Part shown: piece after piece, positions 3,143 through 33,058 of the stretch | How the letters are laid out: every line of letters begins with the position of its first letter | Numbering within the stretch: position 1 is the stretch's first letter | From: Clostridiaceae bacterium BL-3 | Lineage (GTDB): Bacteria; Bacillota; Clostridia; Clostridiales; Clostridiaceae | Length of the DNA: 64,000 nt | Direction of reading: 5' to 3' | Assembly (NCBI GenBank): GCA_902809985.1 | Contig: CADDXC010000001.1 | Span: forward strand, 1,798,001 to 1,862,000 | Position numbers and translations under genes: made by a program | The notes under the pieces: model-generated | Database searches by the model: none | Told to the model about the DNA's origin: nothing | Seen by the model: the letters and a program-made list of their open reading frames with translations, nothing else

Positions 3143-3183
3143 AAATTTGGCTATTTCTTATTTATTATTTGGGTAAAAATTTG
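3143..3183 (-). promoter_or_regulatory. Conserved upstream element, copy A
   Basis: This AT-rich block lies about 75 bp before the surface-protein start. Thirty consecutive bases (3154-3183) are identical to 33029-33058 upstream of virD4. Eighteen of the first 19 bases (from AAATTTGG) match 13516-13534 upstream of the sigma-factor operon. Read on the minus strand it contains TTTTTACC and AAGAAAT about 12 bases apart. It may be a promoter for the element's own sigma factor or an operator; which of the two cannot be told from sequence. Confidence 0.6.
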
Positions 3184-3258
3184 AACAAAACGAAAAGCAC
3201 AATTATCTTCTATAGCATCAATTTAAGATTAGAGGATTTATTATTATATATAAAAGTT

Positions 3259-3289
3259 AAAAGGCCTCATCATTTTCAGATGAGACCTT
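3259..3289 (-). terminator. Terminator of the type IV secretion operon
   Basis: The arms AAGGCCTCAT and ATGAGACCTT form a near-perfect stem. Read on the minus strand it is followed by TTTT. It lies directly after the last gene of the operon and before the separately promoted surface gene. Confidence 0.75.
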
Positions 3290-3291
3290 CA

Positions 3292-3966
3292 TCATAACTT
3301 CCATGATATATCCATTTCAACATCACTTGCATATCTCAGCATAACATTTTGGCTTACAGCATTTCCGCTGCCTTTAAGTATCACATTAAAAGATATTCTA
3401 CCGTCCTCTGTTTTAGTAAAATTCTGATCCACAATTACACTTACCCTACTGCCATCTAACTTCTGGAATTTACTTTTAAGACAAGCAAGCTCATTATAAC
3501 TTGATATTCCATATGCATTTTTCAGGTTGTCTTTATTTGCATTGAAATATTCATTTAAATTCCTACTGTTTTCTATGTCGGCTATTTCTTTTATACCGGC
3601 ATTCAACTTGTCTTCAGCATTTATATACTGATCCGTATTCAATAGCTTCTTGTTAAACAAGAAATAGAGGGATACAGTAGAGTTTGATTTTTCCGCCTCA
3701 GACACTTTTTGAATATCCGGAGCAGCTGAACCTTTAGACGGTGTGTCAAGCTTATCCATATTTTTTATGCGTGCATTGTACTTATTTGCATATTCCATAT
3801 TTTCATCAAATCTCTTCTTTTCAGACAAACTGTGACCTTGTTTCAGATATTCATTTGAGGTATTGAAATGCCTTGAGTTGATTTCATAAATCAATGCACA
3901 ACTTATAAAAACTATAGCTATTGTAGCCGAAGCAAGCAATATCATCTTCTTTTTAGTTGAATCCAC
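3292..3966 (-). CDS. Bitopic membrane protein of the T4SS operon (VirB8-like topology)
   Basis: The 224-residue protein has a short basic N-terminus, one transmembrane helix (about residues 8-26, LLASATIAIVFISCALIY) and an extracytoplasmic remainder with a charged helical part and a C-terminal beta-rich part (about 165-224). That is the layout of VirB8/TcpC-type conjugation proteins, but I see no diagnostic motif, so the assignment rests on topology and position. It is the last gene of the operon, 15 bp after the hydrolase gene, and a terminator overlaps its end. Confidence 0.6.
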   Translation of the reverse strand: MDSTKKKMILLASATIAIVFISCALIYEINSRHFNTSNEYLKQGHSLSEKKRFDENMEYANKYNARIKNMDKLDTPSKGSAAPDIQKVSEAEKSNSTVSLYFLFNKKLLNTDQYINAEDKLNAGIKEIADIENSRNLNEYFNANKDNLKNAYGISSYNELACLKSKFQKLDGSRVSVIVDQNFTKTEDGRISFNVILKGSGNAVSQNVMLRYASDVEMDISWKL

Positions 3967-3981
3967 ATTTTATTCCCCCAT

Positions 3982-6426
3982 TCAATGCTTCAGTGCATCA
4001 TTATAGCTGATTTTGCTCTTGGTTACCCTGAGCTTTATATTGACTCTTCCAAATTGGTTGGCTATTCCGCCTCCGGAACCGGTATTGTAATATGCTCCAC
4101 TCCCAAAATAAACATCTATATGTGTGCCTGTTATGGCACCGCCCCTATCTACAACCACATAGGCACCATTGACATCAACTTTCTGCCCATTTGCCATTTT
4201 CCAGTACCTTTTGCTTTCTGGAACTTTGACAATTACAAGTGTCCCAAAAGGTATGCTTTTGTCTGCGGCTATAAGATGATTGCCTAAGTTTTTATTTGAC
4301 ACATCCATGCCGTTCCAAGCTGCATGAGTGCCACCATTTAAACCTATGTTGTCCCCTGTATAAGCTGTTGCAACACCACTTTGATAAACTATATTGGGAT
4401 TGTTAAATACGTAATAGTCAAAGCTTTCTGCAGCTATTATACTCGACAGATCCCACGTACGGCTGTTCTGATTGTTCTTGTTGTATGGGTCGTGAACAGT
4501 TACCTTGTTATTACCGTCTATATCTACAAGCACGATGTAGTGATTTCCCTGAGTAAAGGTGGAACCAGGACTTCCATATGCTATTCCATCAGTACCATGT
4601 ACATTTGCTATGACAGGATGTCCCTGTTTAAGTTCATTTGCGATGCTCATATAATCGGATCTTCCATAATGTTTCACTGTAAGTCCGAAAAATGATGCCG
4701 CTTTGGAAAAATTATCATTTACATCGGTGTCTTTCTGAACTCCGATGTTATTTAGATAATTTGCCGCTTCATCAGGTTCCAAAATGCCATCACCGTTCTT
4801 GTCGTATCCTCCCAACTTTCCTTCAAGACCACTAACTACCATGGCAAGACTCGCAGGCGCAGATCCCAATTTATCTATTGTGGATCCTGCATATGAATTA
4901 CTTCCCCATCTGCTGTCCCATTGATAAAAAGTGGGAATCATTCCTGCAGAAATTCCGGTGTTTGAACCTCCAAGATCCGCCAGAAGCGAATCCAGTGTCA
5001 GATCACTAAGTTTGCCGTTTATCCAGTCACCATTTTGCTCCTTCCTGTCAAAGTTAAACCCGGATTCTATTATGAAGTATATTGCATCATCCACATCCTT
5101 TTCTTCAGGAAAATCGTGCTTTATTATAGACCTTAACCTGGAGAACAATTCACCCTGAAGCTTGTACCCATCATACACAGGTTTTGTTACAGTGTGAGTA
5201 CCCTCGGAATCAGTATAAGATGAAGTAACCTGATTGTACTGCAAATCCACTTCTCCCCATATGCTGCTTATATGTGTCACAACTGCTATGGAACCTGTAT
5301 GTTTTTTAGTTACAGTGACTTTCTTACCTGTATCAATTCCAAGAATAGTTTCTTCTTTTTCGTAAGTTACAACATCAGTAGTAGTTTCATTTGAAATTGT
5401 AAATTCCGGTTTCAGTTCATCCGCTATTTTATGATCATTTTTTTCTATCTTCTCTTTTATGATTTTCTGGTTGATAATATCGGTTACGGGATTGCCCTGA
5501 GAATCTGAATCACCATTATCTTCTGTATCATTTCCGAAACTGCCGCTAAAGAAATCCTCCGGTTTTATACCCAGTGACATTTCCATGTATTTCATATATC
5601 CAAATACATTCCCGGGACTTAAATAAAACTTTCTTATTATATTGTAAGCATCTGTATAGTCAATTTCATTTTCAGATATACTATCGGATGTAGTATCACT
5701 ATTATCTGAACTGCTGCCAGAATCCCCTGAAACATCGGCTATTCTCCTTGCACCTGCATAGTCATTTCTTGCACTAAGCAGAGAAACCTTTACTACATCA
5801 CCTGTCCTTGGAGCTTGAATGTATTTCCCTTCACCTATATACATACCTACATGTGCCGGTTGATTACCTTCAAAGAATACTAAATCCCCGGGTTTCAGAG
5901 CTGACCTGTCTACAGAAGTTCCAACTTTGAACTGTTCCTGGGATGTTCTTGGAAGATTTATATTGAAATGCCCGTAACAATACTGTACAAGTCCCGAACA
6001 GTCAAAACCCTTCGGGCTTGTACCTCCCCATAAATAGGGAACACCTAAAAACTTCAATGCGTAATTTACAACGTCGCTTGTGCTCTTGAAATCTTCAGGT
6101 ATACTTACTGAGTCACCTCCACTACCTGAATAATTATCTCCATATTTCACATAATCAGGTACCCCAACATTTATTTTATCATCCAGATACTCTTGCAGGT
6201 CTTCCAGTATATCTTTGTTGTCATTAGTTGAAAGTGATGAACTTACAGTATTGTCCCCCATGTCTCCTATGTCGGCTGCAAGTGCTCCAAAAATTACAAA
6301 GGCAATGACAAGAAGTATTATTACTCCTATTACAAGAGGGTTCTTTAAAACAAACTGTCTGGCAAATGACTTAAATTTATTCTTAGCAAATCTTTTAAAG
6401 AAATTCTCCCTATTGTTGTTATTCAC
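3982..6426 (-). CDS. Conjugation cell-wall hydrolase: NlpC/P60 + C39-like + 3D domains
   Basis: This 814-residue protein is anchored by an N-terminal helix (about 31-50). The NlpC/P60 domain (about 112-215) has the catalytic Cys in FDCSGLVQYC (C143) and His in PAHVGMYIG (H192). A peptidase-C39-like domain (about 495-665) keeps NHYIVLVDID and HDPYN, but where the nucleophile is expected the motif reads LGSAPASLAMV, with Ser for Cys. Inside it lies a perfect EF-hand loop, DKNGDGILEPDE. The C-terminal 3D domain (about 700-814) shows VVDRGG and HIDVYF. It probably acts outside the membrane as the VirB1-like enzyme that opens peptidoglycan for the transfer channel. NlpC/P60 function is well supported; the C39 part is probably inactive as a cysteine protease. 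Confidence 0.88.
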   Translation of the reverse strand: MNNNNRENFFKRFAKNKFKSFARQFVLKNPLVIGVIILLVIAFVIFGALAADIGDMGDNTVSSSLSTNDNKDILEDLQEYLDDKINVGVPDYVKYGDNYSGSGGDSVSIPEDFKSTSDVVNYALKFLGVPYLWGGTSPKGFDCSGLVQYCYGHFNINLPRTSQEQFKVGTSVDRSALKPGDLVFFEGNQPAHVGMYIGEGKYIQAPRTGDVVKVSLLSARNDYAGARRIADVSGDSGSSSDNSDTTSDSISENEIDYTDAYNIIRKFYLSPGNVFGYMKYMEMSLGIKPEDFFSGSFGNDTEDNGDSDSQGNPVTDIINQKIIKEKIEKNDHKIADELKPEFTISNETTTDVVTYEKEETILGIDTGKKVTVTKKHTGSIAVVTHISSIWGEVDLQYNQVTSSYTDSEGTHTVTKPVYDGYKLQGELFSRLRSIIKHDFPEEKDVDDAIYFIIESGFNFDRKEQNGDWINGKLSDLTLDSLLADLGGSNTGISAGMIPTFYQWDSRWGSNSYAGSTIDKLGSAPASLAMVVSGLEGKLGGYDKNGDGILEPDEAANYLNNIGVQKDTDVNDNFSKAASFFGLTVKHYGRSDYMSIANELKQGHPVIANVHGTDGIAYGSPGSTFTQGNHYIVLVDIDGNNKVTVHDPYNKNNQNSRTWDLSSIIAAESFDYYVFNNPNIVYQSGVATAYTGDNIGLNGGTHAAWNGMDVSNKNLGNHLIAADKSIPFGTLVIVKVPESKRYWKMANGQKVDVNGAYVVVDRGGAITGTHIDVYFGSGAYYNTGSGGGIANQFGRVNIKLRVTKSKISYNDALKH

Positions 6427-6441
6427 AGTACCATCACCACC

Positions 6442-8775
6442 TTACCACCTGAATCCGTCAATATTCGTGTATGGACTTGTTCTGGCGATAACTGCGCTTT
6501 GCTGTTTAAGAGAAAGACCATTTATTGGATTGGCATTTGTTATTACTTGAGAAGCTCTTCCTATATCACCATGTTCCAAAGCTGATTTGAATTTCTGTGC
6601 ATTCCTATTGTGAGTAATCTCAAATTTATGGCCATCTACATTTTTATTTATGCTTTTAGTTTCACCGCCAAAGAGCTGTGTAAGTGCATCCTGTTTACTA
6701 AGTTTGTTTTCTCCACCTGCAAGGGACTGCATCTGTTCTATTGTGGCGTTTATGGCCTTGCCGGCTATTACCCTGTTTGCCATTCCAGTATTTTTATGAT
6801 TCATTGCCCTTGAAACCCCGCCAAGTACTTTGGCACCCATAGGCTTTTCTGCTGCAAATTTTTTCAAGTTGTCATTCAGCATTGATGAATACAGCATATG
6901 CCTCGAACCTGCCGCTTTTAAATTGTTCATATTCACATTTCCTTCTGAATCGGTTATTGGCTTTAGCGAGTCTAATCCATTAAAATTTTCAGGGTTTATT
7001 ATAGGATCTGTCTCTGAATTTTTTACATTATCTGACGCATAACCGCCAGCACCTGTTCCGTTTTCACTATCCATATAATTTAAAAGGCTTTCTTCATATT
7101 CATTTGGCTTTTTATTATGATTTTGATTACCTCTATTTTGTGCCGCCTGGGGATTACTTGACATTTCACCTTGATCAGTACTGCTGGACTGTCTGAAATT
7201 TTCAGTTGCACTGGCAGCTGCCGCTGTCTTTCCTGCGGCATCTTTTGCACCTTGAGAACTTCCCTGCGGCTTTTTACCACCAGCTCCAAATACAGCCGAG
7301 CCAAGAGCGGAATTCCTTAACCCACCTATATTTAGCCCATTTGAAAGTTTTGAGGGATTTCCTACCTTAAACGTTCTTGCCATGGCACCAGCAGCACCTA
7401 TAGCAAGCTTCGATACAGGGCCAAAAGATCTGCCTGCTATGGACATTTCATCAACACCTGCAAGCTTGGTAAACAATCCCTGAAGTGAATTTCTGAAAAC
7501 TTCTGCCAGTTTGACAAGAGCAAATACCCAGACAAGGGCATAAAACCAATTTTTCCATGAAGATCCGGAGAGACTTATAATCATTATGCTAAAGGTAAAT
7601 GCATAAAAGAACTGCATAGTCGCATTGGTTATCATCTCACCAAACCATATCTGTATGGCCTGTGTCCTGTTGTCTATACCCCAGAAAAGTGCAGCAAGCG
7701 GTGTAAATGCATACATGGCAGTAAGTATTATTTTTCTTACCATGAACAGCATGTTTATCTGGAAAAACTTCCATGCAAACAGACACTTTACAATGGCACT
7801 TGTAAGAAAAGATCCGGTTTTGATGCTGTCTACCATGGAAATATCAGTCACATAGTTGTCTTTTCCAAGCGATGCATTGAATATGGATACAACGGCATTT
7901 GTCATATCACTTGACAGAAGGAATAACCCTTTAAGAAGAAGTGGCCCTAAAGCTATAAGTGCCAATGAGAACAGCCATCTGCAGACATCCTCCTGTAGCT
8001 GCGATCTCTGGGCAGGTCTGTTCGCAGACATTATGAGAGAAATTCCAGTCTTGGCCACCATCAAAAGTACAAGTGGTGCACATATAGAAGAGACAAGCAA
8101 ATACATATAGTTTAGATTTGACCATTCTGCATTAGTAAATGGTGGAACTGTTATGGTTCCAGTTACACCGAAGGCATTGGCACTGGAATTGAATATGAGT
8201 TTATCCAAAGGTAAAAATCCGAAATACTTGTCAAACAAATTAAATATACATTTTTCAACGGAAAGAAAAATATTTCCAAAGGCTTTAACTACGAAATTAC
8301 CGTCATCATCAGTTATGGTTGTGGTCGGCACATTTATCAAACTGGAATTCCCATCTGTAATTGCAGATCCTAGATGGTTGGCCACCCCTATTAGAAAACC
8401 ACTGAGTAAAATACAGGATCCCAAAATACTGCACCCGAGAATTATCTTTCCGAAAGCCGTCATGGTCTCTTCTCTTTTGGTTTGGCTGTTTTTTACAAGT
8501 ATCATTCTCATAGCTGCAAGTCCCATGGAAAAAGCTACAATAGTGCCTCCAAACAAGTAGATATAATATGAAATAGTGTGCTGGGCTTTTTTAGTATCTG
8601 CACCATTCATGTCAAAACTTACAGTTTTTGTAGTAGTAGCAGTAACAGCAAATTCTTTTCCGTAGCTTTCGTAAGATGGTGCTGCTTTTATAGGTTTAGT
8701 TACTGAAAAGGAAAATGCCAGGAAAAACACCAGTAATACAAAAAAATCTAACAGATATCTATGCTTTTTAGACAT
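6442..8775 (-). CDS. VirB6/TrbL-like polytopic channel protein
   Basis: The 777-residue protein begins with a signal-like helix (MSKKHRYLLDFFVLLVFFL). Six to eight further membrane segments lie in the first 470 residues, for example IYLFGGTIVAFSMGLAAM and IILGCSILGSCILL. The last 280 residues are hydrophilic, rich in Gly, Asn, Ser and Gln, and predicted cytoplasmic. This is the layout of TrbL/VirB6 proteins in Gram-positive transfer systems, which form the inner-membrane pore beside VirB4. It lies between virB4 and the hydrolase gene with spacings of 25 and 15 bp. The assignment rests on topology and gene order. Confidence 0.75.
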   Translation of the reverse strand: MSKKHRYLLDFFVLLVFFLAFSFSVTKPIKAAPSYESYGKEFAVTATTTKTVSFDMNGADTKKAQHTISYYIYLFGGTIVAFSMGLAAMRMILVKNSQTKREETMTAFGKIILGCSILGSCILLSGFLIGVANHLGSAITDGNSSLINVPTTTITDDDGNFVVKAFGNIFLSVEKCIFNLFDKYFGFLPLDKLIFNSSANAFGVTGTITVPPFTNAEWSNLNYMYLLVSSICAPLVLLMVAKTGISLIMSANRPAQRSQLQEDVCRWLFSLALIALGPLLLKGLFLLSSDMTNAVVSIFNASLGKDNYVTDISMVDSIKTGSFLTSAIVKCLFAWKFFQINMLFMVRKIILTAMYAFTPLAALFWGIDNRTQAIQIWFGEMITNATMQFFYAFTFSIMIISLSGSSWKNWFYALVWVFALVKLAEVFRNSLQGLFTKLAGVDEMSIAGRSFGPVSKLAIGAAGAMARTFKVGNPSKLSNGLNIGGLRNSALGSAVFGAGGKKPQGSSQGAKDAAGKTAAAASATENFRQSSSTDQGEMSSNPQAAQNRGNQNHNKKPNEYEESLLNYMDSENGTGAGGYASDNVKNSETDPIINPENFNGLDSLKPITDSEGNVNMNNLKAAGSRHMLYSSMLNDNLKKFAAEKPMGAKVLGGVSRAMNHKNTGMANRVIAGKAINATIEQMQSLAGGENKLSKQDALTQLFGGETKSINKNVDGHKFEITHNRNAQKFKSALEHGDIGRASQVITNANPINGLSLKQQSAVIARTSPYTNIDGFRW

Positions 8776-8800
8776 AAAACCAACTCCTTTCTAGCCTTTA

Positions 8801-10666
8801 TCACGGTTCTGCAAATTCCCATTCAAATTCCTTGGGTACGACTTCCATAAGCACAAGATCCTGCTCTGTACGCAGGATAGCTTGTCCGCTCGAGAAGCTT
8901 GAAATATACTCACGACAATTTGCCGACAGATTGAAATACTTTGCTGTTTCCCTGGCTACACTAGGTTCAAGTTTAAGTATTATTTTGGTAGCACAGAGTG
9001 ATACTATAGCCCTTCCCTGCTGGGTAGCTATAAAATCCTCAATAAATTGTGTAGCAAGTGTAAGTGCTATGTTGAAAGCCCTTCCAAGCCTTGCTATATT
9101 GTCTATAAAATCAAGTGCTCTTTCGAACTTGGTAAACAGCGATCCCTCGTCTACATATACATCCTTCAATATATTTTTAAGTTTCCAGTTTGAAAATTTG
9201 GCCCATATCCATGACATGGTGTTTATAGTTGCAAAAAACTTAGAAAAATCATCGGCCAGGTTTTTGAAACTTATAACAATAAGCCTGCTTTTCAAATCCA
9301 CAGTACTTTGGCAGTCAAAAATGGCCATTGGACCATCTCCAGTTATCATCTTCATAATTTCAGTAAGTTCAGTGAGATTTGCAAGCTGGGCGCTCCTGTT
9401 GTATTCCACAAGACCGTCCCTCAAATTTGAAAGTGTAGGAAGTCTCTTTTTTACCTTGCCGGTATAAAACTTACCCTCTACTGCTTTTTCAGCTTCTATA
9501 TAAAGGCTGTCTGCATTTTCCGTTATCTTGCAATCGGAGTACAATTTACTTACCACACCGTCAACAGCTGTAATCTCCTGTCCTCTAAGCGGTTTCCCCC
9601 TGAACCTTTCAGCAAAAATAGAAATCATATTCACTATTTCAGTTCTTTTTCCGTAGAGATTGATTTTTCTCTTTCCATGTTCGTCTTCCTCTATCTCAAG
9701 ATCAAAAGGGTTTATACCGCTTTTGACTCCAGGTTTGAGTTCTATAAATTGTCCTCCAAGAATTTCAGCCTGCTTGCGATATTCACCTTTGGGATCCATT
9801 ATTACCGACCATCTGCCAGCTGCAGTTCCTCTGGCAGATTTTACATGCATTAAAACGGATTTTCCGGCACCTGTTGTTCCACAGATAAAAGTATGTGGAT
9901 TGGTAAGTTCCGGAGCACCTATAAAATTGTTGTAAAATATATAGGACTTCGTATTCAGGTTTCTCCCAAGCAGTATCCCTCCCCTGTGTGAAAGCTGTGT
10001 ATTTCCCAATGGAATAAGACTTGCTATAGCCCCTGTTGTCATATTTCTAAGATAGGAAGAGTATGATAGATTGAGCGTCGGAAGTCCTGAAATAAAACTT
10101 TTGCTTTGATCATAAGTAAGACACCTGATCTTTACAGCTTTTCTACTGCATAAATCATTCAAAGAATTGGATCTATCATCAAGATCCCTGGTATCTCTGC
10201 CCCATATAAAAATAATTGGCTGTGCAAAGAACATCCTTTCTTTGTTTGTCTGGATGAGTTCTCGCAGTGCATCAAGATCATCCGCCGCATGTGCCACTCC
10301 ATAATCCACAGCATATCCATGCTTTACCTGAAGGTTCAGATTAGACTTAAGCTCAGAATATTTGGAGGTGAGCCGATTTATTATCTCAGCATCAGGAATT
10401 GGCTCTACATAAGTTGAAATATCTATGTTTCCCAACGTAAACAGATCATTTAGAAAACCTATATACATCTGCCTCGGGTAATTTGTTATAGCATAAACAC
10501 GAACATATTTATTCGGTCCCAGGTATATATAATCATTGTTTTCACTGAAAACATCGGGGTAAATTAAATCCATGATATTTGATGTTTTATCAAATATATC
10601 ACCTGTTTTTTTATTACTTTTGCCTGGTTTCTTTTTGAATTTCTTCCCTTTCAATATCATATTCAT
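8801..10666 (-). CDS. virB4: VirB4-family conjugation ATPase
   Basis: The 621-residue protein has Walker A at 262-271 (CGTTGAGKSV) and Walker B near 505 (DVYVDEGSLF), followed by the VirB4-type ALTLATQFIEDF segment and a late RTEQD region. VirB4 powers assembly of the type IV secretion channel and substrate transfer at the cytoplasmic face. It is shorter than typical 700-800-residue VirB4 proteins because much of the N-terminal part seems to be in the upstream gene. Its start overlaps that gene's end by about 50 bp, which suggests translational coupling. Confidence 0.9.
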   Translation of the reverse strand: MNMILKGKKFKKKPGKSNKKTGDIFDKTSNIMDLIYPDVFSENNDYIYLGPNKYVRVYAITNYPRQMYIGFLNDLFTLGNIDISTYVEPIPDAEIINRLTSKYSELKSNLNLQVKHGYAVDYGVAHAADDLDALRELIQTNKERMFFAQPIIFIWGRDTRDLDDRSNSLNDLCSRKAVKIRCLTYDQSKSFISGLPTLNLSYSSYLRNMTTGAIASLIPLGNTQLSHRGGILLGRNLNTKSYIFYNNFIGAPELTNPHTFICGTTGAGKSVLMHVKSARGTAAGRWSVIMDPKGEYRKQAEILGGQFIELKPGVKSGINPFDLEIEEDEHGKRKINLYGKRTEIVNMISIFAERFRGKPLRGQEITAVDGVVSKLYSDCKITENADSLYIEAEKAVEGKFYTGKVKKRLPTLSNLRDGLVEYNRSAQLANLTELTEIMKMITGDGPMAIFDCQSTVDLKSRLIVISFKNLADDFSKFFATINTMSWIWAKFSNWKLKNILKDVYVDEGSLFTKFERALDFIDNIARLGRAFNIALTLATQFIEDFIATQQGRAIVSLCATKIILKLEPSVARETAKYFNLSANCREYISSFSSGQAILRTEQDLVLMEVVPKEFEWEFAEP

Positions 10667-11450
10667 CTTCTTTTTTGTCCTCCTTTCCCGAATAGATCTC
10701 CTGGCCTATACCCTCTGTATAAAGCTCCATTGCACCATTTTTGATAAGTTTTTCTATCAGTATGTTGTCACCACGCTGCAATATATCAGCAAAAAGCTGG
10801 GCAATTTGGTATGAATTCAGTATGGATACCCTCATTTTTGCCCCAATAAGCTTGGACATTACCAGGTTGCATTTATACCTGAGGTCATTTTTTGCCCTTT
10901 CCTCATCTTTTATATCAGTGCCAATAATGCAGAAACTTCTAAATACATATACTCCCCTGCTGTTTTCAATTTCCTTATATGAGTTATACAGTTTGTCAGA
11001 ATACTGCCTTAGCCCCTCCGGGATATTTTCATCAGCAGATTCTACTGTTTTTAAAACAAGTTCTGCCGGCTCTTTTGTTTCTATTCTTGTTGGTGTTGTA
11101 AAAAATTGAATTGAATCATTTAGAGAAAGTGCAAACTGGAGAAGTTTCAATTCCATAACTTCTATTTCATCATCAGTAAGAAGCGGAATATCAGGTGAGG
11201 ATACGCTGAGTATGATTCTCCTTTTACCACTTAGGAGCTGAATTTTATTGTTTTTTATGTCATTCATACCTATCAGTTTCTTTATTTCAGGCAGAGACTT
11301 TGTTTTGACATCTTTATTTTTATTGGAAGTTTTAATGTCCTTATCTAAATACTTACCACTCTTTTTATTCTCATCATCTATTCTTGTATAGATATAGGCC
11401 CCAATTGGAAATGAAAGCCCTATAAGTACAAGAACAACTGCTATAAGCAA
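10614..11450 (-). CDS. Membrane-anchored VirB4 N-terminal-like protein
   Basis: I chose a TTG start at 11450 because an AAGAAGGG site sits just before it and the product then begins directly with a membrane helix (LIAVVLVLIGLSFPIGAYIY). An in-frame ATG at 11534 would overlap the upstream gene by 49 bp. The soluble part (about residues 60-278) resembles the region before the ATPase core in VirB4 proteins, for example IENSRGVYVFRSFCIIGTD and YQIAQLFADILQRGD. It is probably a component split from VirB4 that works with it. The tail is strongly charged (EDKKEDEYDIEREE). Confidence 0.65.
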   Translation of the reverse strand: MLIAVVLVLIGLSFPIGAYIYTRIDDENKKSGKYLDKDIKTSNKNKDVKTKSLPEIKKLIGMNDIKNNKIQLLSGKRRIILSVSSPDIPLLTDDEIEVMELKLLQFALSLNDSIQFFTTPTRIETKEPAELVLKTVESADENIPEGLRQYSDKLYNSYKEIENSRGVYVFRSFCIIGTDIKDEERAKNDLRYKCNLVMSKLIGAKMRVSILNSYQIAQLFADILQRGDNILIEKLIKNGAMELYTEGIGQEIYSGKEDKKEDEYDIEREEIQKETRQK

Positions 11451-11485
11451 ATAAATCCCTTCTTTCCAGACAAGCCATAACACAA

Positions 11486-11830
11486 CTATGGTTGGTTTTT
11501 TATAACATGATTTCTCAACTTGTACATGACGCATTTAAATAAATATTTATCAATATTTATACCGTCTTTCTTAATGAAAGCCATAATAATACAAAATATT
11601 GAAAACGGTAATGAAACTACAATTCTAACTGCGAAAGACAAAAAATTAAATGAAATAGCACCACCTACGGTTGTCCTTGACATATAGCCTGTGTTCAATA
11701 TGAAAAGTAGCAATATGATAAAAACTGCAAGCACAATCCATGCAAACTGTCTAAGTGAAAGGTACCCGCCAATAATCTTGTCTTCACTGTCTATGTTGTA
11801 AGGTACAGTAAAATATGTCACATATATCAC
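11486..11830 (-). CDS. PrgI-family (VirB3-like) conjugation protein
   Basis: The 114-residue protein starts with the PrgI signature VPYNIDSEDKIIGGYLSLRQ. Two closely spaced membrane helices follow (about 30-50 and 62-85) and then a basic C-terminus. PrgI proteins sit before VirB4 in Gram-positive transfer operons and are viewed as VirB3 counterparts. The stop lies 36 bp before the TTG start of the next gene. Confidence 0.8.
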   Translation of the reverse strand: MIYVTYFTVPYNIDSEDKIIGGYLSLRQFAWIVLAVFIILLLFILNTGYMSRTTVGGAISFNFLSFAVRIVVSLPFSIFCIIMAFIKKDGINIDKYLFKCVMYKLRNHVIKNQP

Positions 11831-11886
11831 CCCTCTTTTTTATATAAACAGCAGCAGAAGATCCACTGCTGCATTTGTTTTTGTTC

Positions 11887-12267
11887 CTATCCTTTGAGCC
11901 CAAAAGTACCCCAAAAGAAACCTACGAAAATTGCAATAGCACCAATTAATACAGCCCCACCAACTATCCATCCAATTGATGCAAGGGCTTCAGTACGGGT
12001 TTCCTGTCTTTTATGTGCGAGTATCATTGTAAGTCCGACAATTCCCATGGCTATAGCTATGGCTCCACCACCTACAGCCATAAGTACTGTCTTTGTAGAA
12101 CCAAACAATCTGCTTTCCACAGCTTTTGATGATTGAGTGCTGATAGCCTGATCTATGCTGTCTGCAAGTACCGGGCAGTTTACCACAATGATTGCAGATA
12201 ATGTAAAAAAGGCATCCATAACAACTTTCCTGCCATTTGTTAAAAGGTTTCTCAATTTTTTCAGCAT
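11887..12267 (-). CDS. VirB2/TrbC-like small membrane protein
   Basis: The start at 12267 (MLKKLRNLLT) is preferred over 12294, because the AGGAGGTG ribosome site lies between the two. The 126-residue product has a signal-peptide-like start ending near VLADS, a hydrophilic stretch, and two membrane helices (VLMAVGGGAIAIAMGIVGLTMIL and IGWIVGGAVLIGAIAIFVGFFWG) separated by a short charged loop. This is the VirB2/TrbC pilin layout. It lies between a second small membrane protein and the PrgI gene. Confidence 0.75.
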   Translation of the reverse strand: MLKKLRNLLTNGRKVVMDAFFTLSAIIVVNCPVLADSIDQAISTQSSKAVESRLFGSTKTVLMAVGGGAIAIAMGIVGLTMILAHKRQETRTEALASIGWIVGGAVLIGAIAIFVGFFWGTFGLKG

Positions 12268-12305
12268 GAATACACCACCTCCTTTCTTCTGCATCTCATT
12301 TCTCT

Positions 12306-12641
12306 TTACTTACCTGCACCCGCGGTTTTTGCCGCTGTGATTATAAGACCCAGAATGAGCGGGGCAAGATAAAACAAAAACAAAACTGCAATGGTAGTAG
12401 CAATACCACACCATCCAGCTTTTTTAATATTTTTTGACATTAATATTCCTCCAAGGAGTAAAACCAGCGCAGATATCAAAAGTACAAGTTTTGCGATTGG
12501 AAATACAATTGGATCCAAGGAATTGTAGATAAACTGTATTACAGCATTTATACTGTGTGAAAAATCGGAAGAAGACACGGCCTGAACGGCTCCTGAGTCT
12601 ATATTTTCTGCTGCAAGGACAGTAAAAAACATTAGATTCAA
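12306..12641 (-). CDS. Second small VirB2-like membrane protein
   Basis: A TTG at 12641 lies 5 bases after a GGAGGTGA site and gives a 111-residue product. An earlier in-frame GTG at 12650 sits inside the ribosome site itself. The protein has a short signal-like start, an extracellular-type stretch (SSSDFSHSINAVIQFIYNSL) and two strongly hydrophobic helices around a GWCG turn. It may be a pilin-like subunit or a small channel protein. It begins 6 bp after the sigma-factor stop, so the two are co-transcribed. Confidence 0.65.
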   Translation of the reverse strand: MNLMFFTVLAAENIDSGAVQAVSSSDFSHSINAVIQFIYNSLDPIVFPIAKLVLLISALVLLLGGILMSKNIKKAGWCGIATTIAVLFLFYLAPLILGLIITAAKTAGAGK

Positions 12642-12646
12642 GTAAA

Positions 12647-13306
12647 TCACCTCCCATCTGTAGCACAGATTTTTTCATCATCCTGGTTGAACAGCTCAAA
12701 TCGTAATTTTCTAATGGAATTTTTTTTGATTTTATAGACCTGAGATTTCTCTAAATTTAAAAGAGCTGAGATTTCCTTGAGCTGCATCTGATCAAAATAA
12801 AATCTTTTCAATATAAATATTTCCAATTTGGATAATTTACAATATCTGAAAAGCTGGGTTAAGAATATATGATTTTCTACATTTTTGAACTCATTGAATT
12901 CACTTTTGGCATGTAAATTCGTTATTTCATCCAGTGATAACAAACTTTCAGATTTGAATTTTTTAAACTTTTCTGGATCTTTGGATTGCCTTTTCGATCT
13001 CATATAACTTCTGATTTTATAATCCGGAAGATGTACATAAAACGTATTATTGCTCATATATTTCCATATTTCCCCTTTGATATATGGATAAGCGTAAGCT
13101 AGAAATTCGGAATTGCTTTCAAGATTATAGTTTCCAAGCGCTTTCAAAAAGCCTATTTTGCCCTCAGATACCAGGTCCTCGAAATTTGTATTTGAAATGC
13201 TTAATTTATGTGCTATCCAGTAAATGTAATTTATATTTTTATTTAAAAGAGTTGAAACAGCTTTTTTATCCCCTTGCTGGGCTTTTTTTATGAGTGTATT
13301 ATCCAT
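12647..13306 (-). CDS. Sigma-70-family factor heading the transfer operon
   Basis: The 219-residue protein has sigma region 2 in the first half (NFEDLVSEGKIGFLKALGNYN, followed by YAYPYIKGEIWKYM) and region 4 at the C-terminus (ILKRFYFDQMQLKEISALLNLEKSQVYKIKKNSIRKLR, a helix-turn-helix). Length and layout fit a small alternative sigma factor of the sporulation/general-stress type rather than a housekeeping sigma. It lies upstream of the T4SS genes in the same operon. It may recognise the conserved element upstream of itself (13516-13553), of the surface protein and of virD4; that link is inference. Confidence 0.8.
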   Translation of the reverse strand: MDNTLIKKAQQGDKKAVSTLLNKNINYIYWIAHKLSISNTNFEDLVSEGKIGFLKALGNYNLESNSEFLAYAYPYIKGEIWKYMSNNTFYVHLPDYKIRSYMRSKRQSKDPEKFKKFKSESLLSLDEITNLHAKSEFNEFKNVENHIFLTQLFRYCKLSKLEIFILKRFYFDQMQLKEISALLNLEKSQVYKIKKNSIRKLRFELFNQDDEKICATDGR

Positions 13307-13398
13307 GGAGACTCTTCTATATTTGTTTTTCCTAATGTTGCTACTTTCTTTTTTACTGCCTTATAGCTGGCATCCTTCAATTTAATCATGATGTTCAT
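13288..13398 (-). CDS. Possible 36-residue leader peptide overlapping the sigma gene
   Basis: An ATG at 13398 (with a second at 13389) follows GGAGGG by 13 bases and encodes a basic peptide starting MNIMIKLKDASYKAVKKK. The stop at 13288 is 16 bases inside the sigma gene, whose own ribosome site is weak (GAAGAG). Translation of the leader could therefore couple to sigma synthesis. It is short and without homology evidence. Confidence 0.4.
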   Translation of the reverse strand: MNIMIKLKDASYKAVKKKVATLGKTNIEESPWIIHS

Positions 13399-13515
13399 CA
13401 ATTCTGTTTTTCCCTCCTAGTAAACTACCTTACATTAGAATTGTCAGGGTAAGTTTACTTGGATTTTAAAGTTAAATCGACCTTAATTAAATGGTACAAC
13501 ATATTTTTAATTATA

Positions 13516-13553
13516 AATTTGGCCATTTCTTATCCGTTTTTGGAGTAATAATT
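13516..13553 (-). promoter_or_regulatory. Conserved upstream element, copy C
   Basis: This lies about 120 bp before the leader/sigma start. It begins with the same block as copy A (AAATTTGG, then ATTTCTTAT) and continues with GGAGTAA where A and B have GGGTAA. The similarity to copy A continues toward the gene (CCATTTAATTAAGG compared with TCATTAAATTAAGA). The sigma operon would be autoregulated if this is its own promoter. Confidence 0.5.
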
Positions 13554-13739
13554 GGTATATAAATTTAAAATTTTTGATATTAACACAAAAAAATAAAGGA
13601 TGTTCATATCCCACTTGTTGAAATAAGAGACTTCCCTACTTTAGCTGAATTATCCTATTTATAATACTGTCCTTTATACTCTATAATTATATAGCCATTT
13701 TTCTGCTTCCTTTATTCTGTCATAAGTATCAATGCTGAT

Positions 13740-15231: not shown

Positions 15232-15406
15232 TTATTTTTCTTTAACAAGCTTTATCCATGGCTTAAATGAATCTTTTTTTACCACACCTAGCATATTACA
15301 AAATTTTTCAAAGTTAACTAAACTAAATAAGTCAAATTTACGATTATTAATCAGCTGATCAGCAGTTTCTATACATCCTTTTGAAAAATCTTTAGCTGTA
15401 GATTAT
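15232..15406 (-). pseudogene. 3' end of an Mrr-like restriction endonuclease gene
   Basis: Read on the minus strand this gives STAKDFSKGCIETADQL and then a C-terminal tail ending KLVKEK-stop. It begins abruptly at the end of IS3 copy 1. The missing upstream part is found on the far side of IS3 copy 2 (28520-28615), where the frame ends with GANKGIYI. Joined, they give the Mrr-type sequence GANKGIYI-STAKDF, though a frame slip remains at the junction. The family call is from this motif only. Confidence 0.6.
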
Positions 15407-16396
15407 AATGGACCCAAGAATTCAGACAAAAAAATGCTTGCTTTTTAGTTAGGTTCTCCATAATATTTTTATTAAGGATGGTGAATCACATGAGGAAAAT
15501 TTACAGCTCCGAATTCAAAGCAAGATTAGTACTGGAAGTACTTCGTGGAGAACGTACTTTAAGCGAAATAGCTTCTGAAAATCAAGTCCATCCCAATATG
15601 CTCACAAGATGGAAAACAGAAGCTGTAAAGAATTTTTCACAGCTTTTTGAAAAAGAAGCATCTAAAACAAAGCAGCCAGAACCAGCCAATACTATTTATC
15701 CTTACCTGCTCAAAAACCTTGTAATAATGTATCCTGATCAAGTGTGGAGCATTGATATTACCTACGTTCCAATACACAAAAGCTGGCTTTACCTGGTGGC
15801 AATCATCGACTGGTATTCACGTTTTGTTGTGGATTGGGAAATAGATGACAATCTTGAAATTTACTTTGTACTTGAAGCATGCAAAAATGCTTTGAAAAAG
15901 TCAGCACCCGAAATTATAAATAGTGACCAGGGGAGTCATTTTACAAGCCCAAAATACACAAATTTGTTTCTTGAATCAGATTCAAGGATCAGCATGGACC
16001 ATCGAGGGCGTGCCTATGACAATATTTTTATTGAAAGATTGTGGCGCAGTGTTAAATATGAAAATATTTATCTGCAGGATTACCAGAATCCACGGGAGGC
16101 ACGCATTGGAATCAACGGCTACTTGAAATATTATAATTATAAAAGGCCGCATCAAAGTCTTAGCTATAAGACTCCCGCTGAAATATACAACAAATAATTT
16201 ATTTGCTTTCCTGAGAAAAATTATACCTGCAGATGGAAATTACGTCAAGGATGCTGACGCACCATCTGCGATGGCATGTCCCTGACATAATTTTCATCAA
16301 CAGGTGAAGTGTATTTAAGGGAAAGCATTATGATACTGTTTATCAACCTAACTATAAATCTACTAAAAAATTGTCTTGACAAAGGGGTGCACTTTA
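15404..16396 (+). mobile_element. IS3-family element, copy 1
   Basis: The ends are imperfect inverted repeats: TATAATGGACCC at the left and the complement TAAAGTGCACCC at the right. It is identical to 27527-28519. There is no direct duplication around this single copy; the matching GAT lies beyond copy 2. Confidence 0.8.
15490..16197 (+). CDS. IS3-family transposase, internally fused OrfA-OrfB
   Basis: The protein (235 residues from ATG 15490 after AAGGATGGTG, or 239 from 15478) begins like OrfA (YSSEFKARLVLEVLRGERTLSEIASENQVHPNMLTRWK). At about residue 60 it switches to the integrase core of OrfB, with triad residues in WSIDITYVPI, INSDQGSHFT and NIFIERLWRSVKYE. The leucine zipper of OrfA and the N-terminal HTH of OrfB are missing, so it is far shorter than the usual roughly 380-residue frameshift product. 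All three acidic residues are present. An identical gene lies at 27613-28320. Confidence 0.85.
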   Translation: MRKIYSSEFKARLVLEVLRGERTLSEIASENQVHPNMLTRWKTEAVKNFSQLFEKEASKTKQPEPANTIYPYLLKNLVIMYPDQVWSIDITYVPIHKSWLYLVAIIDWYSRFVVDWEIDDNLEIYFVLEACKNALKKSAPEIINSDQGSHFTSPKYTNLFLESDSRISMDHRGRAYDNIFIERLWRSVKYENIYLQDYQNPREARIGINGYLKYYNYKRPHQSLSYKTPAEIYNK

Positions 16397-27526: not shown

Positions 27527-28519
27527 TATAATGGACCCAAGAATTCAGACAAAAAAATGCTTGCTTTTTAGTTAGGTTCTCCATAATATTTTTATTAAGG
27601 ATGGTGAATCACATGAGGAAAATTTACAGCTCCGAATTCAAAGCAAGATTAGTACTGGAAGTACTTCGTGGAGAACGTACTTTAAGCGAAATAGCTTCTG
27701 AAAATCAAGTCCATCCCAATATGCTCACAAGATGGAAAACAGAAGCTGTAAAGAATTTTTCACAGCTTTTTGAAAAAGAAGCATCTAAAACAAAGCAGCC
27801 AGAACCAGCCAATACTATTTATCCTTACCTGCTCAAAAACCTTGTAATAATGTATCCTGATCAAGTGTGGAGCATTGATATTACCTACGTTCCAATACAC
27901 AAAAGCTGGCTTTACCTGGTGGCAATCATCGACTGGTATTCACGTTTTGTTGTGGATTGGGAAATAGATGACAATCTTGAAATTTACTTTGTACTTGAAG
28001 CATGCAAAAATGCTTTGAAAAAGTCAGCACCCGAAATTATAAATAGTGACCAGGGGAGTCATTTTACAAGCCCAAAATACACAAATTTGTTTCTTGAATC
28101 AGATTCAAGGATCAGCATGGACCATCGAGGGCGTGCCTATGACAATATTTTTATTGAAAGATTGTGGCGCAGTGTTAAATATGAAAATATTTATCTGCAG
28201 GATTACCAGAATCCACGGGAGGCACGCATTGGAATCAACGGCTACTTGAAATATTATAATTATAAAAGGCCGCATCAAAGTCTTAGCTATAAGACTCCCG
28301 CTGAAATATACAACAAATAATTTATTTGCTTTCCTGAGAAAAATTATACCTGCAGATGGAAATTACGTCAAGGATGCTGACGCACCATCTGCGATGGCAT
28401 GTCCCTGACATAATTTTCATCAACAGGTGAAGTGTATTTAAGGGAAAGCATTATGATACTGTTTATCAACCTAACTATAAATCTACTAAAAAATTGTCTT
28501 GACAAAGGGGTGCACTTTA
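27527..28519 (+). mobile_element. IS3-family element, copy 2
   Basis: Identical to 15404-16396, same orientation. Its left border lies in the Tn3 transposase and its right border in the mrr-like remnant. Confidence 0.8.
27613..28320 (+). CDS. IS3-family transposase, internally fused (copy 2)
   Basis: This is identical in sequence to the transposase at 15490-16197. It has an OrfA-type HTH joined in frame to the OrfB integrase core with all three acidic residues (DITYVP, NSDQGSH, IERLWR). The start at 27613 parallels the choice made for copy 1. Confidence 0.85.
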   Translation: MRKIYSSEFKARLVLEVLRGERTLSEIASENQVHPNMLTRWKTEAVKNFSQLFEKEASKTKQPEPANTIYPYLLKNLVIMYPDQVWSIDITYVPIHKSWLYLVAIIDWYSRFVVDWEIDDNLEIYFVLEACKNALKKSAPEIINSDQGSHFTSPKYTNLFLESDSRISMDHRGRAYDNIFIERLWRSVKYENIYLQDYQNPREARIGINGYLKYYNYKRPHQSLSYKTPAEIYNK

Positions 28520-29297: not shown

Positions 29298-29415
29298 TAT
29301 AATTTGCTCCCTCCTTACAACACCTCATTATGGATTTTGTTATATTTTTCAAATAGCAAAATCCCAACTCTGCTATAAATATACCAACCATATAGATTAA
29401 ATACTATCCTTAATT

Positions 29416-29859: not shown

Positions 29860-29874
29860 ATGATTTACCGCCCC

Positions 29875-30363
29875 TTATATCAACTTTTTTGTTTTATCTA
29901 TGAAAAACTTGTATTTTTTCCCCGGTATACTTATTTTTCTTATTTGTTTTTCATCATCAACAATAATTATTATCCTCATGGAGTTGCTCTTCTCCATGGC
30001 AGGAACAATCACAGACTCTTGTCCGTCTTTAACCAGTGCTATGTCAAAAAATTTGTTTCCCTCTATAAAAGACAAAATATAAGGGAATTTTGATACAGTA
30101 CACCAGCTTGCACCAAACATTTTATGTATATAGCTATAGGCATCTAATGCCTTAAGTAAATCTCTGTTTATTTTATCAACTGTTGGGTAAAGTAAAAGGT
30201 CTCCCTCTTTTTTAAGATAAGGAACTTGTTTTGCCATAAGAGGTTCTATCAATTCATCTATATCATTAATTCCAGTTATGTCTTTTATTTGGGAAATAGT
30301 AAGATGCCCAAACTGCTTCAATAAATCCATTATTTGTTTTTGATCTTTTGATAAATAAAACAC
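29875..30363 (-). CDS. Winged-helix protein (DUF5697-like) of conjugative elements
   Basis: The 162-residue protein has an N-terminal winged helix (SKDQKQIMDLLKQFGHLTISQIKDITGINDIDELIEPLMAK) and a beta-rich second half (FFDIALVKDGQESVIVPAMEKSNSMRIIIIVDDEKQIRKI). This resembles DUF5697 proteins found near VirD4 in Firmicute elements; the name is from memory of the family. In the 256-bp gap toward virD4, a GGGTTTTGCC/GGCAAAGCCC inverted repeat (30399-30421) lies in its upstream region. Confidence 0.6.
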   Translation of the reverse strand: MFYLSKDQKQIMDLLKQFGHLTISQIKDITGINDIDELIEPLMAKQVPYLKKEGDLLLYPTVDKINRDLLKALDAYSYIHKMFGASWCTVSKFPYILSFIEGNKFFDIALVKDGQESVIVPAMEKSNSMRIIIIVDDEKQIRKISIPGKKYKFFIDKTKKLI

Positions 30364-30619
30364 GTAATCAACTCCAATGCATTTATTTTAGAAGGGAGGG
30401 CTTTGCCTATGGCAAAACCCTTATAAAGACATAAATACACAAACATGAAAAACTATGATATGACAATTAAATTAAGATAAGATTTTATCCTATATTTTTT
30501 TACCCTCATTTACATGATAACTAAAAATCAAAAAAATAACCTTGTTTTAAAATTGTTTTTTATTTATTTAAAATTTTATTTTTATTGGCATCAGAAATGT
30601 TTTAGAACTCATTGATTTT

Positions 30620-32950
30620 TTACCAGAAGGACTCCTCATCCTCTTGGGTGTCATGTTCATCCTGCAGAAAACCGTCTTCCTTAAAATTTTCACAATCCTT
30701 AAAGAAATTTAATTGAGCACTCTTTTCCATAGGTTTTTTATCTCTCAACTTTTCCAGCCTGTGTATTTCATTTTCTATTTCCTCCCTTGACAATTCGTCA
30801 TACCTCTTCACTTCATCAAATTTATTTTCAACTTGCAACTTTTCGCCTTCATTATTTTTGTTGTTATTTTTTTCTTCGATCATAGAAATTTCTTCATTTT
30901 TTGATTCACTGGATACAATATCAGTCTTTTCTTCTTTCCCCTGCTCCACAAAATCTTGCGCAACTGCTTTCCTATCCTCTTGTAAATTATTTTGTAAACC
31001 CTTTGGAACAACTTTTGACTCATCATTTCCTACGGCAGAATTTATTTTTTCTTCTACAATCTTTAGGATTTTACTTATAAAAATCAGTATTTCTTTTTCT
31101 GAAATTCTGAGGCGTGAAAATTCTTTCATAGGCTTTTTCTTACGTTTTCTAACCTCTTGCATTGCCCTTTCAATCATTTTTTCTTCGTCCAGATAATATT
31201 TTTCAGCCCACGGAAGCTTGTAGTCTCTAATGCCAGTTGGTTTAAGATGTTTTGCCATCTCATGCTCTGAATAATCCATTTTATACAGCATTAACGGCTG
31301 CTCTCCTCTATACATGAGTATGGCTTTCTTTCTGTCAAGTCTCAAGAGTTCGTCAGGGTTTTGCAGATTTCTTCCACTTGGTGATACATTCTGGGATCCA
31401 AAATCAGCTATTCCTTCAATTCCAGCTTTTTTGTTTGAAGAATGGGATTCCACCGTAGTAGGCCCTATATGTTCCGAAACTTGTTTTGCCGTCATGTCGT
31501 CGGATGCCCCCAAGAACAGCTGACTGTCACAGTTACCCAGGATTTCAAACCATGCATCATGTGGATATCTGTTCTTGAGTTGGGCTATGTTTTGGAATAT
31601 TATAAAACATATTATACCCCTGGATCTTAAAGTAGATATCTTCTTTTTAAAATCAGGTATAGCACCAATATTTGGAAATTCGTCAAGAATAAAATACACT
31701 TCCTGCTGCTCTTCAATTGGTATCATCTTTTTGTAAAAATCAGCATACTTGGTGAGTTTCATAAATAGAAATGAGAAAAATAGACTTGCTACAAAGTCAA
31801 ATGTACTTTCTGAATCGGATGTGATACAGAAATAAGCAGTTTTTTCATATTTAGGTGCTGTAAGATCTATATCACTTGTTGCAGTCAGGTTCTGGACTAT
31901 TTCATTCTGGAAAATCTGCAACTTGGATCCAAGACCTATTACTATATTAGGCTTTATCTTGTCACTTGCCTGTGAATATATGGCATAAGGCATTTTGGCC
32001 GGATTTGTGCTGTCAAGCTGTGCAAACATTGCATCAAGTATCACTACATTTTTTGTCACTAGCATAGAATATACTGTCGCCAGATTTCTGTTTCCTTCCG
32101 GTACTACAGTGACTACATATAGCACTAGTGCTTTTAAAAGGTTCATCTCAGACTTTTCCCAGAACTCGTCCACTTTTCCATCAACCGGCCTTGTATTTGC
32201 CATAACAGTTTCGGCAAAACTCTGGGCTGAAATATCATCCGTAACTTCTGCCAGCGGGTTCCATCTATCCGAATGTATCATATGAACCAGGTTCAGCACC
32301 TTCACATTGTATCCTTCATGGTCTCTCAAAAAAGGCGCCATATCCTCAAATATCTCAGCTTTTGGATCAGTTATAACCATGGATTGTCCCATCCTGGCTA
32401 TCTGCATTATTTGATTCCTAACAAACGCCCTTGATTTACCTGTACCTGCAGCACCATAAACAGCAACATTTTTGTTTGCTGTCACCGGAAGTGAAAGAGC
32501 AACGGTTTCAAATTTTCCTGACCTTCTAAGTTCTATACTGCCGCCTTTTTCTAGCTTTCCAAAGATTATTCCGCTGCCTGAAGTCCCGCTTTTAACAGTG
32601 AATATTTCCCTGGCCCTTTCATATGGCATCCATTCTGCAGTTCCGTATGTTCCCTGTTCAGGTATAGCGATAGGCCCGTCCTCTTTTTTATGACTTACGT
32701 GGCCTGCAACAAAAATCAGACCTGCAACAAAGCCAAAGAAAACAATGAAACATTTGAACCATTTGAAAAATACCATTTTATTTGCTATGAGAAGTTTCAG
32801 ATTGCCTGCAAAACTTTGAGTTCCGTATGCATTGACAATATCTTCGACATGCCCTGAACTTGTAGCTATTATTGGTACAAACAAATATATGCTTATTATG
32901 AAGACAAGTATAAAGGCTACAGTATATTTAATTTTATTATTCTTAGACAT
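30620..32950 (-). CDS. virD4: VirD4/TraG type IV coupling ATPase
   Basis: The 776-residue protein has two N-terminal membrane helices (about 9-29 and 66-83), Walker A at about 165-174 (YGAAGTGKSR), Walker B near 415 (VYFILDEFPNIGAIPDF), and the T4CP motif FQNIAQLKNRY. The last 190 residues are charged and low complexity (KNNNKNNEGEK, EDEESFW), a likely partner-binding tail. Coupling proteins bring the relaxase-DNA complex to the VirB channel. Here the gene lies 17 kb from virB4, separated by inserted elements, and has its own conserved upstream element. Confidence 0.93.
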   Translation of the reverse strand: MSKNNKIKYTVAFILVFIISIYLFVPIIATSSGHVEDIVNAYGTQSFAGNLKLLIANKMVFFKWFKCFIVFFGFVAGLIFVAGHVSHKKEDGPIAIPEQGTYGTAEWMPYERAREIFTVKSGTSGSGIIFGKLEKGGSIELRRSGKFETVALSLPVTANKNVAVYGAAGTGKSRAFVRNQIMQIARMGQSMVITDPKAEIFEDMAPFLRDHEGYNVKVLNLVHMIHSDRWNPLAEVTDDISAQSFAETVMANTRPVDGKVDEFWEKSEMNLLKALVLYVVTVVPEGNRNLATVYSMLVTKNVVILDAMFAQLDSTNPAKMPYAIYSQASDKIKPNIVIGLGSKLQIFQNEIVQNLTATSDIDLTAPKYEKTAYFCITSDSESTFDFVASLFFSFLFMKLTKYADFYKKMIPIEEQQEVYFILDEFPNIGAIPDFKKKISTLRSRGIICFIIFQNIAQLKNRYPHDAWFEILGNCDSQLFLGASDDMTAKQVSEHIGPTTVESHSSNKKAGIEGIADFGSQNVSPSGRNLQNPDELLRLDRKKAILMYRGEQPLMLYKMDYSEHEMAKHLKPTGIRDYKLPWAEKYYLDEEKMIERAMQEVRKRKKKPMKEFSRLRISEKEILIFISKILKIVEEKINSAVGNDESKVVPKGLQNNLQEDRKAVAQDFVEQGKEEKTDIVSSESKNEEISMIEEKNNNKNNEGEKLQVENKFDEVKRYDELSREEIENEIHRLEKLRDKKPMEKSAQLNFFKDCENFKEDGFLQDEHDTQEDEESFW

Positions 32951-33017
32951 TCAACCATCCTTTCCAACCTACATTTCTTCTCGGTCAGCTCAAGGATAGC
33001 ATCTAAATATCGGTTTA

Positions 33018-33058
33018 AAATTTAGCATTTTCTTATTTATTATTTGGGTAAAAATTTG
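33018..33058 (-). promoter_or_regulatory. Conserved upstream element, copy B
   Basis: Thirty bases (33029-33058) are identical to 3154-3183, and the AAATTT-AGC flank is also shared. It lies about 75 bp before the virD4 start, the same distance as copy A from the surface-protein start. The similarity ends abruptly on the gene side, so it is not a large duplication. Confidence 0.6.

Follow-up and report, generated by a model that had tools for sequence, protein, structure and literature searches.

A repeated 40-bp upstream element with promoter-like anatomy in a clostridial mobile element, and the sigma factor that may read it

Why should transfer operons that encode unrelated proteins be preceded by the same short stretch of DNA? 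This question is raised by a region of Clostridiaceae bacterium BL-3, here called the window (64,000 nt; positions 1798001–1862000 of a 3.86-Mb genome, contig CADDXC010000001.1, G000:C1 in the coordinates below), in which a first-pass annotation had described 30 identical bases at 3154–3183 and 33029–33058, together with a related copy at an operon that encodes a sigma factor and a type IV secretion system (T4SS). A mobile element, which extends leftward past the window edge, takes up most of the first 54.5 kb. We describe the shared sequence as T, an element of 40 bp on the minus strand, whose copies are named after the genes downstream of them (T_surf, T_sig, T_virD4 and T_cpaE), and we suggest, with moderate confidence, that T may be the promoter class of a self-amplifying sigma factor of the mobile element itself.

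The 30 identical bases were read directly, and 26 of them were also recovered as an exact match; the related copy is equally real, since 3143–3161 and 13515–13533 agree at 18 of 19 bases. The three sites had been correctly placed, but T belongs to the minus strand and must be read on it, because all of the genes concerned are minus-strand genes, and the copies are four rather than three: an additional one, T_cpaE, lies 4.8 kb beyond the window's left edge, ahead of a Tad/type-II-like operon, and first showed when 23 upstream regions of the mobile element were compared. All four copies are on the coding strand and directed towards their genes, three of them at 66–74 bp from the start; the distance of about 75 bp given previously holds for the surface protein (74 bp) and virD4 (68 bp), whereas the sigma gene starts 209 bp away, with a possible 36-codon open reading frame (ORF) about 117 bp from T_sig as counted on the sequence. 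Aligned in register, the four 40-mers are identical in 22 of 40 columns, with pairwise identities ranging from 25 to 37 of 40 (surf/virD4 37, surf/sig 31, sig/virD4 29). Outside 40–48 bp, identity drops to 3–10 per 20 bases (surf/virD4 and sig/virD4), and T_surf and T_sig additionally agree at 15 of the 20 bases just downstream of the element.

Conservation within T is bipartite: TTAnYCnAA is followed by a variable spacer and then by AAGAAAnnGCnAnAnTT. Invariant columns number three of six in the upstream A/T part, six of nine in TTAnYCnAA, one of eight in the spacer, six of six in AAGAAA, none in the next two and six in the last nine, and no insertion or deletion between the blocks distinguishes the four copies, so that the spacing is fixed. 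Two asymmetric blocks at fixed spacing, on the coding strand and 5′ of genes, are the arrangement by which a promoter class can be judged, and it is found in 4/4 copies. An inverted repeat common to all copies was not found, the outer arms pairing at 6/6 positions in T_surf and T_virD4, 4/6 in T_sig and 2/6 in T_cpaE. The –10 consensus of SigF is GGnnAnAnTw and its –35 consensus, about 15 bp upstream, is GYWTA; the last ten bases of T agree with the former at 6/6 positions in T_sig and at 5/6 in each of T_surf, T_virD4 and T_cpaE, a likeness that is suggestive only. Promoters of SigE, SigH, SigK and SigD, compared by eye through their consensus sequences, fitted more poorly and were set aside. 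Within the limits of sequence evidence, T is established as a regulatory DNA element that the operons share and whose anatomy is promoter-like, and the earlier proposal of selection on a regulatory sequence is well supported by the unrelated downstream genes, the common orientation, the fixed spacing and the two conserved blocks around a variable spacer; it is further backed by the fourth copy at another transfer-type operon and by the lack of scatter in the host genome.

The copies were compared with several chance models. A 19-mer at up to three mismatches gave four matches in the window against 0.42 expected from shuffles (largest value 3), three of the four being T copies; the other (44996–45014, three mismatches) is at chance level. 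A 26-mer at the same tolerance gave two window matches and none in 100 shuffles. A matrix built from the three window copies only ranked T_cpaE fourth in 114 kb with 23.9 bits (E = 0.0008 with the base composition of the region, 0.005 with an AT-richer one), the next-best score being 13.1 and the best on the reversed sequence 12.9; the maximum score in 60 third-order Markov sequences, 21.0, lies below that of T_cpaE. The weak fifth match, scoring 13.1 at G000:C1:1786373, is within a gene and at control level, and was discarded.

Within the host genome, T is restricted to the mobile element. In fact, a 29-base two-block pattern fitted to all four copies, with the pattern read backwards as control, matched the genome four times with no mismatch, never with one and three times with two (control, five in all at up to two mismatches); equally good matches spread across the host, which the first-pass annotation had named as evidence against its proposal, were therefore not found, since the pattern retrieved just the four T copies at up to one mismatch. 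Among 391 Clostridia genomes the exact pattern occurs in this one and in none of the 390 others (the control matched once, in another genome), and a stricter degenerate pattern had no match in any IMG/VR contig. The second block by itself, at up to one mismatch, is found in 10 of 206 family genomes including this one, the other nine having one match each (backwards, four genomes); in the genome studied here it gives 33 matches at up to three mismatches against nine backwards, with the three copies of the window alone at up to two.

The putative reader of T is a sigma-70 family factor of 219 aa, whose gene is the first long one of its operon, among the four operons preceded by T. A generic sigma-70 model covers residues 16–202 above its cut-off, and the SigB/SigF/SigG model (TIGR02980) gave the best E-value of 54 NCBIfam matches, the best 25 of which were listed; on these comparisons the factor is a relative of SigB, SigF and SigG and not a member of the group. 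Its region 2.4 reads YAYPYIKGEIWKY, against YAVPMIIGEIRRY in the host gene assigned as SigG by gene order, with the form YAxPxIxGEI shared; P-x-I-x-G-E-I is present in it, and region 2.4 differs from that of the neighboring host SigE-like gene. The closest solved structures are 8b3z, which in its aligned residues is similar to the host gene assigned as SigE, 1l0o, which we take to be SigF, and 8x6g, while sigma region 4 aligns with FliA chains. When 194 family genomes were searched with the sigma factor, the best match besides its own gene was in Clostridium oryzae (E 1e-14); the others among the matches listed were no better than 1.3e-13, a level at which general and sporulation-type sigma factors are found in that list.

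In the mechanism that we propose, RNA polymerase carrying this group-3-type sigma factor would use T as a promoter, TTAnYCnAA serving as the –35 region and AAGAAAnnGCnAnAnTT as an (extended) –10 region, and transcription would start about 7 bp 3′ of the last conserved thymine. As the sigma operon is itself among those preceded by a copy, a small amount of the factor would raise its own level in a positive feedback, and would simultaneously activate the genes of the T4SS, of the VirD4 coupling protein, of the large surface protein and of a second Tad/type II secretion system (T2SS)-like module. The predicted regulon would thus comprise the surface protein, the sigma factor with the T4SS, VirD4 and the Tad/T2SS-like operon behind T_cpaE, which encodes a protein without Pfam match (labelled CpaE-like), a T2SSE ATPase, a T2SSF-like protein (below cut-off), RcpC/CpaB, a second T2SSE ATPase and an NlpC/P60 hydrolase. 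What is observed is the four copies, their spacing, strand and position, their restriction to the mobile element and the sigma gene behind one of them. Together with its likely sigma factor, T offers a concrete, short and testable candidate consensus, with a predicted regulon of four transfer-type operons.

Relatives of the system were sought through VirB4. A search of genome contigs with the VirB4 protein alone retrieved no relative, the same search with a VirB4 alignment retrieved at least seven loci, and a VirB4 scan of viral sequences found none; the 391 genomes of the class yielded four further VirB4 relatives at E ≤ 1e-60, 32–34% identical, and a sigma search in short stretches of these found none. 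A sigma gene near VirB4 is found in C. oryzae (contig NZ_MZGV01000039; VirB4 52% identical, the nearest found) and in three Clostridioides loci (39%), namely the plasmid pESS17301a (NZ_CP067354) and the C. difficile loci L063 and L064, in which it adjoins the VirB4 gene. No sigma match occurs in the available stretch of a Clostridia metagenome-assembled genome (MAG) contig (VirB4 49%), in a whole Vallitalea plasmid (40%) or in several distant, mostly short stretches. The C. oryzae sigma gene, which opens its contig, is 31% identical over 153 aa, but its region 2.4 is SigA-like (WWIRQAI), and the factor of pESS17301a is only 28% identical over 134 aa. When the regions 5′ of genes in C. oryzae, Vallitalea, C. 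difficile L063 and the MAG contig L062 were compared in pairs, nothing T-like emerged; Clostridioides gave a different repeat instead. Upstream of the Clostridioides sigma operon (L038:28496–28964), AAGTAGCCATTTCACAAT lies about 220 bp away from its own reverse complement, with one of the two copies in a hairpin.

A number of observations weigh against a role of T as the promoter of this sigma factor. Both that role and the reading of T by the factor are deduced from sequence, and there are just four copies, two of them nearly identical, so that the four do not count as independent witnesses. The TIGR02980 score of the factor is 70 bits, compared with a curated cut-off of 234 for membership; agreement with GGnnAnAnTw at 5/6 positions is, by a rough estimate, not rare in 40 AT-rich bases; and no known –35 fits, GYWTA being absent and the 5-mers at its place, by eye, being CCAAA, TCCAA, CCAAA and CCCAA. 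A second Tad-like operon (35916–42788) has no copy of T by either upstream comparison or matrix. The motif search in the mobile element and its relatives, suggested in the first pass, yielded the fourth copy, but the relatives whose VirB4 gene has a sigma gene next to it did not yield the same element. The 39-kb contig of C. oryzae lacks the promoter region of its sigma gene, and the sole match of a loose pattern in it is inside an ORF. In pESS17301a a site 5′ of the sigma operon, TCACCCAAAATTGTGAAATGGCTACTTG, is loosely T-like with a spacer five bases shorter, and the loose pattern matches twice in 134.9 kb, at this site and in one coding gene; as the site recurs in nearly the same sequence in the two C. 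difficile loci, they provide no independent footprint. Since the sigma proteins differ in region 2.4, their promoter sequences could have drifted.

The first-pass annotation had offered two mechanisms, a promoter for the sigma factor of the mobile element or the operator of a common repressor. Of these the promoter fits better, because no dyad is conserved (T_cpaE keeps only 2/6 arm pairs) and a sigma gene lies behind one copy. T could nevertheless be the operator or activator site of a regulator encoded by the mobile element, for example the LexA-like or the helix-turn-helix (HTH) protein of Table 1, beside ordinary SigA promoters, and we consider this possible though not probable: both proteins are encoded there, a bare promoter would be shorter than the conserved stretch of about 40 bp, and the T_surf and T_virD4 copies carry a 6-bp outer inverted repeat, which however pairs at only 4/6 positions in T_sig and at fewer still in T_cpaE. 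SigA-like promoters, counted on both strands, are not in excess near T_surf (1 against 2.7 shuffled) or T_sig (1 against 2.5), and number 9 against 5.9 (standard deviation 2.5) near virD4. It is less likely that T is read by a group-3 sigma factor of the host (SigD, SigF or SigG), which would couple transfer to motility or sporulation. The host does have a SigD/FliA gene above the family cut-off and other group-3-type genes, including SigF and SigG as assigned by gene order and score; the –10 consensus of SigD is GCCGATAT, which the GCC in the second block resembles, as the block also resembles GGnnAnAnTw of SigF, but neither the SigD –35 box TAAA nor GYWTA fits, and at up to one mismatch the host genome contains no other occurrence of the 29-bp pattern.

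Two further explanations appear highly improbable. Recent duplication of a short stretch without common function would suit the 37/40 identity and sharp boundaries of the surf and virD4 copies; on the other hand, all four copies face genes, three at similar distances, the blocks are conserved while the spacer varies, and the genome holds no further copy at up to one mismatch. An action of T in the 5′ leader RNA, through structure or protein binding, is hardly more credible: the position of T at 66–74 bp from three starts would allow it, and a different repeated leader of the same mobile element (B, below) has paired stems with some two-sided changes, whereas RNAalifold predicts no pair across the four T copies and Rfam has no match at gathering threshold in the window or in the two stretches analysed to its left (L033 and L034).

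Table 1. Coordinates of T, of the genes behind it and of other features (window positions unless a prefix is given)
Feature	Position	Strand	Remarks
T_surf (copy 1)	3143–3182	–	Predicted –35 block 3168–3176, predicted –10 block 3143–3152; surface-protein start at 3069
T_sig (copy 2)	13515–13554	–	Predicted –35 block 13540–13548, predicted –10 block 13515–13524; sigma start at 13306
T_virD4 (copy 3)	33018–33057	–	Predicted –35 block 33043–33051, predicted –10 block 33018–33027; virD4 start at 32950
T_cpaE (copy 4)	G000:C1:1793161–1793200 = L033:15161–15200	–	Outside the window; 66 bp 5′ of start at L033:15095
Large secreted or surface-type protein	1–3069	–	Frame apparently continuing to G000:C1:1797197 (L033:19197); no Pfam match
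Sigma-70 family factor	12647–13306	–	Pfam sigma-70 region 2; proposed reader of T
Possible 36-codon ORF	13288–13398	–	AGGAGG upstream; overlaps sigma start; seen in sequence only, listed by no tool
T4SS operon behind sigma gene	3292–12650	–	Pilin-like protein (below cut-off), PrgI, VirB4, membrane protein, hydrolase
NlpC/P60-3D hydrolase	3982–6426	–	In T4SS operon
CD1110-like VirB4	8801–10666	–	Below NCBIfam cut-off
Terminator-like hairpin	3260–3290	–	After NlpC operon; isolates copy 1 from preceding operon
VirD4-like coupling protein, CD1115 family	30620–32950	–	NF045973, above cut-off
LexA-like repressor	44120–44731		Above cut-off
Fic protein	44876–45475		Pfam Fic above cut-off; NCBIfam VbhT-like, below cut-off
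HTH protein	49194–49583		
Leader B copies	54525, 49050; left of window –879, –17996, –20375, –22194 (partial), –23425, –25953 (L033, L034)	–	
Replication-type genes	L034:11299–18468		DnaX-like clamp loader, delta subunit, beta clamp, primase-like DUF3854 protein, SSB
Exact 300-bp repeat	15404–15703, 27527–27826		First copy overlaps transposase gene

The mobile element contains, besides the T4SS operon, the CD1115-family VirD4, Tad/type-II-like modules and the large surface-type protein, and to judge from this gene content it can be called conjugative. Its probable limits (about G000:C1:1769000–1852700) and integrated state are likewise deduced from the genes; stretches on the left and right compared for element ends shared just AT-rich matches of 13–14 bases, and neither an integrase nor an att site was established. 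Further left it appears to have a set of replication genes of its own, as an integrated plasmid would. Several transposase genes lie in the interval between the sigma/T4SS operon and virD4, a 300-bp repeat is exact, and a Fic protein and the LexA-like repressor are encoded inside the mobile element (Table 1).

A second repeated leader, B, made up of TTTTACCNCATATTAA or close variants and about 70 nt, is present eight times on the minus strand of the mobile element, seven times in full and once in part. TTACCNCATATTAA occurs exactly five times in the genome, each time within the mobile element, and 14 more times at one mismatch, two of these being B copies; only the exact matches are telling, because the sequence read backwards already matches 22 times when one mismatch is allowed. 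Three of the eight copies lead into replication-type operons (DnaX-like, beta clamp, DUF3854), a fourth into a gene run that reaches SSB, and the rest are followed by genes of unknown function or by a cell-wall protein gene. Two short stems are predicted in B, with changes on both sides in five of ten pairs among seven sequences, a small set, and B has no Rfam match. In the 134.9 kb of NZ_CP067354 (L038–L040), GCCCCATATTA has 11 matches at up to one mismatch (for example at record positions 3710, 104197, 110503, 116878, 119161 and 121433), of which, by eye, nine follow TTTCAAA and about nine have a short inverted repeat after them (AAGCTG...CAGC or the like). These Clostridioides leaders may be related to B; in alignments with six of them, only three of seven B copies beat at least 95% of shuffles. 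T, in turn, may derive from B: compared with the B set, the surf, virD4, cpaE and sig copies beat 300, 300, 283 and only 128 of 300 shuffles, respectively, and compared with the six Clostridioides leaders surf, sig, virD4 and cpaE beat 228, 283, 252 and 95.

From these two leaders one could imagine that the conjugative element runs a two-class programme like that of a phage, in which B would serve replication genes and others, and T, read by the self-amplifying sigma factor, would serve transfer, sigma specificity and promoters having drifted together into the versions of Clostridioides and C. oryzae. We hold this to be doubtful, because an operon with replication genes follows directly on only three of the eight B copies.

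How does the proposed pair of sigma factor and promoter compare with known systems? Mobile or accessory elements whose own sigma factor acts on the element itself are known from the TcdR/BotR/UviA type and from phage-encoded sigma factors; the factor described here differs in that its closest NCBIfam model is that of SigB/SigF/SigG. It is to these factors of the Bacillota that its region 2 is closest (TIGR02980, 70 bits), and AAGAAAnnGCnAnAnTT fits GGnnAnAnTw at 5–6 of 6 positions, but, unlike them, the 219-aa factor falls below the family cut-off, its candidate promoters lack a GYWTA-like –35 and their copies are confined to the mobile element. Our text search found no paper that prints the SigF letters as such, and none are printed in the accessible part of PMC7522486. 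A search of the literature on conjugation sigma factors, with most subscription journals outside its reach, found nothing on T; as regards sigma factors, the accessible text of two papers mentions the host SigH and SigD only (PMC6540685, PMC11730352). A parallel by description is the set of eight sigma-like genes on the conjugative transposons of C. difficile 630 (PMC7438776), which likewise reside on conjugative elements in Clostridia, but mainly on those of the Tn916/Tn1549/Tn5397 type. According to the part of that study of C. difficile transcription starts available to us, the promoter consensus for putative mobile-element sigma factors is still to be identified (PMC7438776); sigma-like genes being frequent on clostridial conjugative elements while their promoter consensus is missing, T may fill this gap as a candidate.

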